48,413 nt of DNA, taken from Pseudomonadota bacterium. Lineage in GTDB: Bacteria; Pseudomonadota; Alphaproteobacteria; GCA-2731375. A program made the position numbers and the translations under genes. The stretch lies in contig JAQBYC010000024.1 of NCBI GenBank assembly GCA_027623205.1, positions 1 to 48,413 on the forward strand, given 5' to 3'. Within the stretch, counting starts at the first letter, position 1. Each line of letters begins with the position of its first letter. Positions 43,672 through 47,809 of the stretch are shown here, piece after piece. The notes under the pieces are model-generated. The model was not told the DNA's origin and did not search any database. It saw only the letters and a list, made by a program, of their open reading frames with translations.

Positions 43672-44589
43672 ATGGGCGCGATCGATATTGTCTGCAATCT
43701 CTTCACGGAACGGGAAGTCGCCGAGGGGCGCACCGGACTGGACGAAACATTCAAGGCCCAGGTCCGCATGCCCGAGGAGATCCGCAACGGTGTCCCGATC
43801 CCGCGCTATTTGGAGAAGATGGCCGCGGCCGGGATCGACCGTTCGCTGTTGATCGCCGTGCGCGCCGGTGATCTGGCGGTGCGGGGCTCGTTCGAGATTG
43901 AATACAGCCGGGTGGCGGAGGTCTGCGCCGCGCATCCCGACAAGTTTTCCGCTCTTGCCGGAGTCGATCCCTTTCGCGGCATGGCCGGAATTTATGAACT
44001 GCAGCATGCCGTGGAAAAGTTGGGCTTTGTCGGCGCGCACCTCTATCCGCATTGGTTCGGTCTGGCGCCGAACGACCGGCGTTATTATCCCTACTATGCC
44101 AAATGCTTCGAGCTGGATATACCGATCATGATGCAGGTTGGCCATAACCTGATTTATTCCCGCGACCGCCGCCTGCCCAGCGTCGGCCGCCCCATCACCC
44201 TGGACGAGGTGGCCATCGATTTTCCCGAGTTGAAGTTGATCGGGATACACATTGGCGTACCCTGGACAGACGAGATGATCTCCATGGCCTGGAAACACGA
44301 GAATGTCTTTATCGGCGTGGACGCCTATGCGCCGAAACATTGGCCACCGCAAATCGTCCACTACCTGAACACCTATGGTCAGAACAAGGTGCTGTTCGGC
44401 ACCGATTGGCCGGTGATCGATCCCGAACGCGCCATGGTCGAGATCAACGCCATGGGTCTGCGCGCGGAGGCCAAGGCAAAACTGCTGCGGGAAAATGCCC
44501 TAAGCCTGTTCCGCCTGCCGGAAAGCGCCCCGGAAGGCCCACCGGAACGCCCGCCGGAACGCCCAGTGGAAAGCATTGTGACGGCATGA
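43672..44589 (+). CDS. Amidohydrolase-superfamily protein (metal site modified)
   Basis: A 305-residue TIM-barrel protein of the amidohydrolase_2 type (ACMSD/OMA-like). Barrel strands are visible in GAHLYPHWFGL, IMMQVGHNL, IGIHIGVPW and VLFGTDWPVI, which keep His and the final Asp. The first strand, which in most members carries the H-x-H metal pair, reads AIDIVCNLFTE with no His, so binding of a metal at that site is doubtful. A C-terminal Pro/Glu/Arg repeat (about residues 288-300) follows. Its stop is fused to the acyl-CoA synthetase start (ATGA), indicating tight coupling. It is probably a hydrolase or (de)carboxylase in the same pathway; the reaction is unknown. Confidence 0.85.
   Translation: MGAIDIVCNLFTEREVAEGRTGLDETFKAQVRMPEEIRNGVPIPRYLEKMAAAGIDRSLLIAVRAGDLAVRGSFEIEYSRVAEVCAAHPDKFSALAGVDPFRGMAGIYELQHAVEKLGFVGAHLYPHWFGLAPNDRRYYPYYAKCFELDIPIMMQVGHNLIYSRDRRLPSVGRPITLDEVAIDFPELKLIGIHIGVPWTDEMISMAWKHENVFIGVDAYAPKHWPPQIVHYLNTYGQNKVLFGTDWPVIDPERAMVEINAMGLRAEAKAKLLRENALSLFRLPESAPEGPPERPPERPVESIVTA
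44537..44572 (+). repeat. Short 12-base tandem repeat at a gene 3' end
   Basis: The unit CCGGAACGCCC(G/A) appears in a short tandem run at the end of the amidohydrolase-like gene, encoding a Pro-Glu-Arg-Pro (PERP) repeat. This is a small slip-prone tract that could change length without disturbing the catalytic barrel. Confidence 0.6.
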
Positions 44590-46285: not shown

Positions 46286-47809
46286 ATGGCGGTCCAAGTT
46301 CCTACCCCCGATCAACTTTGGGAAGTTGCCGAGGAAATCGGCCTGAACCTGACGGAGGCGGACATCGCCTCGTATATTGAATTGATGCGCGGCAATGTTG
46401 CGGCCTACAACATCATCGATGCCATGCCGGACAATTTGCCGCCGGTGACTTACGCCCGGACGCCCGGCTATCGGCCCAGCGGCGAGGAAAACAAATACAA
46501 CGCCTGGTACGTGAAGACCACGGTACAGGGCGCCGCGCGCGGCAAGCTCAAGGGCAAGTCCATCGTTTTGAAAGACAACATCATGCTGGCCGGCGTGCCC
46601 ATGATGAACGGTGCGGCCACTTTGGAAGGTTATGTCCCGGATATCGACGCGACGGTCGTAACGCGTATATTGGATGCCGGTGGCACCATTGTCGGCAAGG
46701 CACATTGTGAATCATTTTGCCTGTCGGGAGGCAGCCATACCAATGCGACCGGCGCTGTGCATAACCCGCATAAAATGGGTTATTCCGCCGGCGGCTCGTC
46801 CTCGGGCAGTGCCGCCCTGGTTGCCGCCGGGGAAGTCGATATGGCCATGGGCGGCGACCAGGGTGGTTCCATTCGCATGCCGGCTTCATACTGCGGCATC
46901 TATGGCATGAAGCCGACACACGGACTGGTGCCCTATACCGGCATCATGCCGATCGAGGTCTATGTCGATCACACGGGCCCAATGACCAATACGGTGGCCG
47001 ACAATGCCCTATTGCTGGAAGTCATTGCCGGCGAAGACGGCTACGACCCACGCCAGTACAACGTGAAGACACATCGCTACACCCAGGCTCTGGCAGACGG
47101 CGCCAAGGGCCTCAAGGGCATGAAAATCGCCGTCGTCAAGGAAGGCTTTCTGGCGGAAAACGCCGAAAGCGACGTAAACGCCAAGGTCCGTGCCGCGATC
47201 AAGAAACTGCAATCCCTGGGCGCCAAGGTGAAAGAAGTCTCGATCCCCATGCATGCATTGGGCGGCGCGCTTTGGGTGCCGATCGGGGTTGAGGGGTTGA
47301 CCCAGACCATGATGCATGGTGACGGTTATGGCTGCAGTCGGCCGGACCTCTATGTTACCTCGCTGATGGATAAACATCGCGGCTGGCGGCAGCGGGCCGA
47401 CGAGATGTCGGAGACGACCAAGCTGTTCACCATGTTCGGAACCTATATCAACAAGCACCATGGCAGCCGCTATTACGGCAAGGCCATGAACATCACCCGG
47501 CTGCTGACGGCGGCTTACGATGCGGTATTGGCCGACTACGATCTACTGGTGATGCCGACGACACCGGTGAAGTCGACACCCTTGCCCGGCCCCGATGCCT
47601 CGCGTGAGGAATACGTCCAACGGGCGCTGGAAATGCTCTATAATACGGCACCATTCGATATCACCCATCATCCCGCCATGGCGGTGCCGTGTGGCATGTC
47701 GAAAGGCCTGCCCGTGAGCCTGCAGCTTGTCGGCAAACATTTCGACGAACCGACCATTTATCGCGCCGCGCATGCCTTTGAACAGGGCGCCAAGTGGAAA
47801 TCCATGTAA
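46286..47809 (+). CDS. Amidase (amidase signature; AmdA-like)
   Basis: A 507-residue amidase-signature enzyme of the subgroup that includes nitrile-hydratase-linked amidases. The triad is Lys96 in SIVLKDNIM, the GGSSSGSAAL loop near 169-178 and nucleophile Ser195 in GGDQGGSIRMPAS (the GDQGGS form is typical of AmdA-like enzymes). SGGSHTNATGAVHNPHKMGYS also fits this group. It would turn an amide into acid plus ammonia. GGAG precedes ATG 46286; a 164-base gap separates it from the acyl-CoA synthetase. It is followed by a strong terminator (47831-47866), so it closes the cluster. A truncated nitrilase-like gene faces it. Confidence 0.93.
   Translation: MAVQVPTPDQLWEVAEEIGLNLTEADIASYIELMRGNVAAYNIIDAMPDNLPPVTYARTPGYRPSGEENKYNAWYVKTTVQGAARGKLKGKSIVLKDNIMLAGVPMMNGAATLEGYVPDIDATVVTRILDAGGTIVGKAHCESFCLSGGSHTNATGAVHNPHKMGYSAGGSSSGSAALVAAGEVDMAMGGDQGGSIRMPASYCGIYGMKPTHGLVPYTGIMPIEVYVDHTGPMTNTVADNALLLEVIAGEDGYDPRQYNVKTHRYTQALADGAKGLKGMKIAVVKEGFLAENAESDVNAKVRAAIKKLQSLGAKVKEVSIPMHALGGALWVPIGVEGLTQTMMHGDGYGCSRPDLYVTSLMDKHRGWRQRADEMSETTKLFTMFGTYINKHHGSRYYGKAMNITRLLTAAYDAVLADYDLLVMPTTPVKSTPLPGPDASREEYVQRALEMLYNTAPFDITHHPAMAVPCGMSKGLPVSLQLVGKHFDEPTIYRAAHAFEQGAKWKSM

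Follow-up and report, generated by a model that had tools for sequence, protein, structure and literature searches.

The gene at positions 43672-44589 of the window, the whole 48,413-nucleotide stretch of DNA that was analysed, encodes a 305-residue protein of the amidohydrolase fold in which the H-x-H metal pair of the first barrel strand is replaced by Val and Asn. With the corresponding positions on strands 5, 6 and 8 this gives the tetrad VxN-Q-H-D (strand 1 motif, then strands 5, 6 and 8). The protein belongs to a conserved, functionally uncharacterised branch of the normally metal-dependent PF04909 family, and we favour, with moderate confidence, the view that it is a working enzyme that dispenses with the usual transition metal and is linked to an acyl-CoA ligase. 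All window features described here lie on the forward strand.

The open reading frame starts with ATG, and its product matches Pfam Amidohydro_2 (PF04909) with an E-value of 5.8e-40 and 138.3 bits, against a cut-off of 26.4, which places it within the family. The match starts only at profile position 60, and the strand that would carry H-x-H therefore lies outside it. An AlphaFold2 model (52 sequences; mean pLDDT 90.4, pTM 0.87) is a (beta/alpha)8 barrel; the top Foldseek matches are all PF04909-type barrels, the closest being 3irs (TM 0.74/0.80). No named NCBIfam family was obtained for the protein or for the HxH and WxQ relatives searched, and so far the family consists of sequences and functionally uncharacterised structures only.

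ACMSD, which shares the PF04909 fold, binds Zn through His9, His11, His177 and Asp294, with His228 activating water (PMC11650718). At these positions the 305-residue protein has Val, Asn, Gln, Asp and His, respectively, so that three of the four Zn ligands are gone. Strand 1 of the model comprises residues 3-9 (AIDIVCN; 43678..43698), and the 'ID-x-H-x-H' of the HxH sisters aligns without gaps to 'ID-I-V-C-N', V7 and N9 falling on the two His residues. In an alignment of 81 rows, made up of the query and 80 homologues from separate GTDB genomes, V7, N9, Q155, H193 and D245 are each found 81 times, and strand 1 has neither H-x-H nor E-x-A/H; the absence of H-x-H from this strand, proposed in an earlier sequence-only reading, is thus confirmed. 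Strand 5 reads 'IFHTG' in HxH sequences and 'IMMQVG' here, with Q155 (44134..44136) in place of the metal-ligand His. The same reading had held that the later His and the final Asp remain. This is correct for the strand-6 His, H193 (44248..44250), which is equivalent to ACMSD His228 and invariant in both the HxH and VxN groups, and for the strand-8 Asp, D245 (44404..44406), equivalent to ACMSD Asp294, but the loss of the strand-5 His had been missed. Its suggestion that CNLF might be a conserved subfamily mark is not borne out: C8 (62/81), L10 (69/81) and F11 (57/81) vary, and the mark is V-x-N rather than CNLF.

The VxN-Q-H-D tetrad is also fixed in 39 rows spanning two VxN subfamilies, and dN/dS between the query and five orthologues is 0.057-0.107. 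The gene is therefore neither decaying nor the result of a sequencing fault, and it is under strong constraint. Invariant residues were not significantly enriched on the active-site face (21/64 versus 12/59, Fisher p 0.15). The closest HxH relatives (L107-L130; 34-36% identity) have I4, D5, D99, G121, G157, H193, P197-W198 and D245 in common with the VxN protein but, unlike it, carry the full HxH-H-H-D set. Fixed residues that switch between the HxH and VxN groups include H7V, H9N, K123H, H125Y, H155Q and S217D, among others. At the end of strand 4 (residues 123-128, HLYPHW; 44038..44055) H123 and Y125 replace the Lys and His of the HxH sisters while H127 is invariant, and on strand 7 D217 (44320..44322) is new in the VxN group, the sisters having Ser. 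That these fixed residues switched together suggests a pocket that was rebuilt rather than simply lost.

The best sequence match among solved structures (E 4e-21), and also the closest fold, is BB4693 of Bordetella bronchiseptica (PDB 3irs, 3k4w). Like the 305-residue protein, BB4693 lacks H-x-H (IDFRLR) and has a strand-6 His followed by Pro-Trp (SHGNWPW versus HIGVPW). It differs in having R-x-R where the window protein has V-x-N and in the replacement of the strand-8 Asp by Ala (FGTAYP), where the window protein keeps D245, and the two are only about 24% identical. BB4693 has no assigned function, and a literature search on it found nothing. Both structures were released in 2009, so HxH-less barrels were already present in the PDB. 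The loss of HxH is no isolated oddity: a comparable loss is found in BB4693, and the subfamily itself occurs widely. LigI (COG3618), which belongs to a COG other than that of the 305-residue protein, was reportedly described by Hobbs in 2012 as a lactonase of the superfamily that works without a divalent metal. LigI keeps its strand-1 His residues. After BB4693 the next best structural matches, of the same fold, are the gamma-resorcylate and 2,3-dihydroxybenzoate decarboxylases (2dvt, 3s4t, 7a19), LigW and LigJ; the gamma-resorcylate and 2,3-dihydroxybenzoate enzymes require one divalent metal (PMC6644310).

A wider search recovered the states VxN-Q-H-D (two subfamilies), WxN-Q-H-D, LxN or LxH with S-H-D, WxT-Q-H-D and WxQ-Q-H-N, together with a separate set that has S/A/G-x-R/T on strand 1 followed by H, P and A/S. 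The five motif columns were excluded from an unrooted tree, in which a single branch (98/91; 96% of bootstrap trees) separates the 51 HxH-less rows that have the strand-6 His (VxN, WxN, LxN/LxH, WxT and WxQ) from the 15 HxH rows. The x-R/T set joins the HxH rows through long branches. Parsimony would provisionally put the number of HxH losses at two.

In the WxQ-Q-H-N group (L104-L106, L161-L168, L173, L183) all four metal-ligand positions are altered and the strand-6 His alone is kept; loss of the Asp with retention of this His is as expected if catalysis is independent of metal. The few genomic neighbourhoods of this group that were looked at had no obvious gene in common. The proposal of the sequence-only reading that the active site must differ, through another metal arrangement, no metal or a new function, is well supported by the fixed Val, Asn and Gln and by the absence of the Asp from this sister group as well.

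The 5-Mb window genome (G000) contains a large set of 21 PF04909 matches. A second VxN copy (contig C82:3638-4480; L081, L132), with IDAVVN, Gln, His and Asp, adjoins a TRAP transporter and an ABC transporter, and its 7-kb contig has no CoA ligase. A third, more distant paralogue (L085, contig C129) reads HxN-H-H-D and is possibly a step between HxH and VxN. Matches with E <= 1e-45 were found in 44 of 385 genomes drawn evenly from the window's class and in 7 of 369 drawn evenly from the class of genome G122; genome G698 has six, five of them VxN-like by score. Relatives on plasmid records come from Comamonas, Variovorax, Rhizobium, Roseomonas, Rhodococcus and haloarchaea and, where annotated, are named only amidohydrolase or amidohydrolase family protein.

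Directly downstream in the window is a gene for a 511-residue AMP-forming acyl-CoA ligase (PF00501/PF13193; 44586..46121), whose ATG overlaps the amidohydrolase stop codon (ATGA, 44586-44589) and whose closest solved structures are the fatty-acyl/feruloyl-CoA synthetases 8weu/8wev. Such a ligase lies directly 3' of the amidohydrolase gene in 71 of 80 loci, with a start-stop distance of -21 to +56 nt; adjacency was counted from known gene coordinates, the gene caller having missed 14 of the 80 copies. The remaining nine loci have no adjacent ligase, and six of these have no copy in the locus stretch examined. Four loci had suggested a fusion with the ligase, but the apparent extension crossed a stop codon and no fusion was left after trimming. 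The HxH sisters are mostly not beside a ligase: 2 of 22 loci have a related one no more than 1.5 kb away. None was seen within this distance for the WxQ group or for a large part of the second VxN subfamily, among them the second copy in the window genome (L132). A strong ligase link is thus confined to the VxN subfamily of the window protein.

Upstream of the amidohydrolase gene is a gamma-glutamyltranspeptidase-family gene (PF01019; 41996..43606), which recurs only in L001 and L002, the closest two of the loci found, and the ligase is followed by an amidase of the PRK07235 subfamily (46286..47809; NF005565, 801.9 bits against a cut-off of 545). In some 20-27 loci, mostly gammaproteobacterial, the pair has a DUF4437 cupin gene upstream and genes for a DsbA-like protein and a type II DMSO-reductase-family molybdoenzyme downstream; in examples of this cluster (L017, L025, L053, L054, L065) the molybdoenzyme is ethylbenzene-dehydrogenase-like. 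Plasmid relatives from the second subfamily have nearby genes for an acyl-CoA dehydrogenase, an alpha/beta hydrolase, an isochorismatase-like hydrolase, IclR regulators and uptake systems. One HxH sister (L139, 5001-8598) adjoins an enoyl-CoA hydratase and an AMP-binding enzyme, which is suggestive of phenylpropanoid-type catabolism. Since the neighbours other than the ligase vary, no substrate follows from the context, although it does suggest a CoA-dependent catabolic route that may begin with an amide. Searches of the published literature on such a gene neighbourhood found nothing. A functional parallel for a CoA-dependent role may be offered by CouO of Rhodococcus jostii RHA1, an amidohydrolase-superfamily member that acts at the final step of a side-chain beta-oxidation begun by a CoA ligase (PMC4737184); relatedness to the VxN clade is not implied.

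From these observations we infer the absence of the metal, the catalytic roles of the residues and an acyl-CoA substrate. The protein would be an active cytosolic (beta/alpha)8-barrel enzyme from the PF04909 (ACMSD-like) branch of the amidohydrolase superfamily that has given up its zinc/manganese site, the strand-1 His pair having become Val and Asn and the strand-5 His Gln, with polar residues on strands 4 and 7 changed alongside (K123H, H125Y, S217D). H193 and D245 would act as an acid/base pair, and N9, Q155 and nearby polar groups would hold the substrate carbonyl in the metal's stead; a cation that prefers oxygen ligands might nevertheless be bound by N9, Q155 and D245. The reaction would most likely be a hydrolytic or C-C-cleaving step on the acyl-CoA made by the downstream-encoded ligase, or on the acid just before its activation, in a route for the catabolism of an imported amide- or acid-type compound. 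The exact chemistry is doubtful at best, and literature searches for a beta-ketoacyl-CoA hydrolase or a retro-Claisen reaction, the former with an amidohydrolase and the latter with an amidohydrolase and a CoA ligase, found nothing.

The main rival to a metal-free enzyme is that the metal has been relocated to a mononuclear beta-type site, for which H123 (strand 4), Q155 (strand 5), H193 (strand 6) and possibly D217 or D245 would supply the ligands. Some amidohydrolases, of the NagA type, use only the beta metal position. Neither VxN subfamily shows any variation at H123, Q155, H193, D217 and D245, and the loss of HxH is accompanied by the appearance of H123 and D217, the HxH sisters having Lys at 123 and Ser at 217. 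Against this, position 123 is Arg or Leu (WxQ, L181) and position 217 a Ser or Ala-type residue in related groups that have likewise lost HxH and carry Gln on strand 5. The clade as a whole therefore shares no alternative set of ligands, and Gln binds transition metals poorly. No known group was found in which the ligands are supplied from another strand, the finding that would have told against the sequence-only reading, whose interpretation is on the whole partly supported. We regard a relocated metal as unlikely.

Less likely again is a non-catalytic pseudoenzyme that partners the co-translated ligase or acts on it as an allosteric subunit. Although the loss of three ligands and the tight, overlapping arrangement with the ligase gene would suit such a role, the strand-6 His and strand-8 Asp are invariant, as are many polar residues near the strand ends (fixed residues there include H123, Y125, H127, D217 and W224), and the loci with no adjacent ligase or no copy in the locus, along with several second-subfamily copies that have no ligase nearby, argue against it as well. 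A literature search for pseudoenzymes with metal ligands found nothing. A misreading through frameshift, wrong start, sequencing or alignment error, with the true HxH elsewhere, was first raised by the late start of the Pfam match but found no support and can be dismissed almost entirely, as the 81 homologous sequences carry the same strand without gaps and the AlphaFold2 model places the segment as strand 1.

Returning to a working metal-free enzyme, we tentatively suggest that a single PF04909 clade, found in Proteobacteria, Actinomycetota and Halobacteria, dropped its metal site once and diversified (VxN, WxN, LxN, WxT, WxQ) to give several enzymes that work without metal and carry out new chemistry on acyl-CoAs; the VxN form would then act with a CoA ligase of its own in a catabolic pathway that has yet to be described. 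Routine annotation treats PF04909 proteins as metal-dependent hydrolases or decarboxylases. This clade is large and coherent, and it has lost most of its metal ligands while its remaining active-site residues are frozen; together with its HxN and HxH relatives, which allow comparison, it is well suited to testing how a metalloenzyme barrel can turn into a catalyst that needs no metal. The constant CoA-ligase partner is a starting point for finding the reaction, and hundreds of proteins could receive a corrected annotation.
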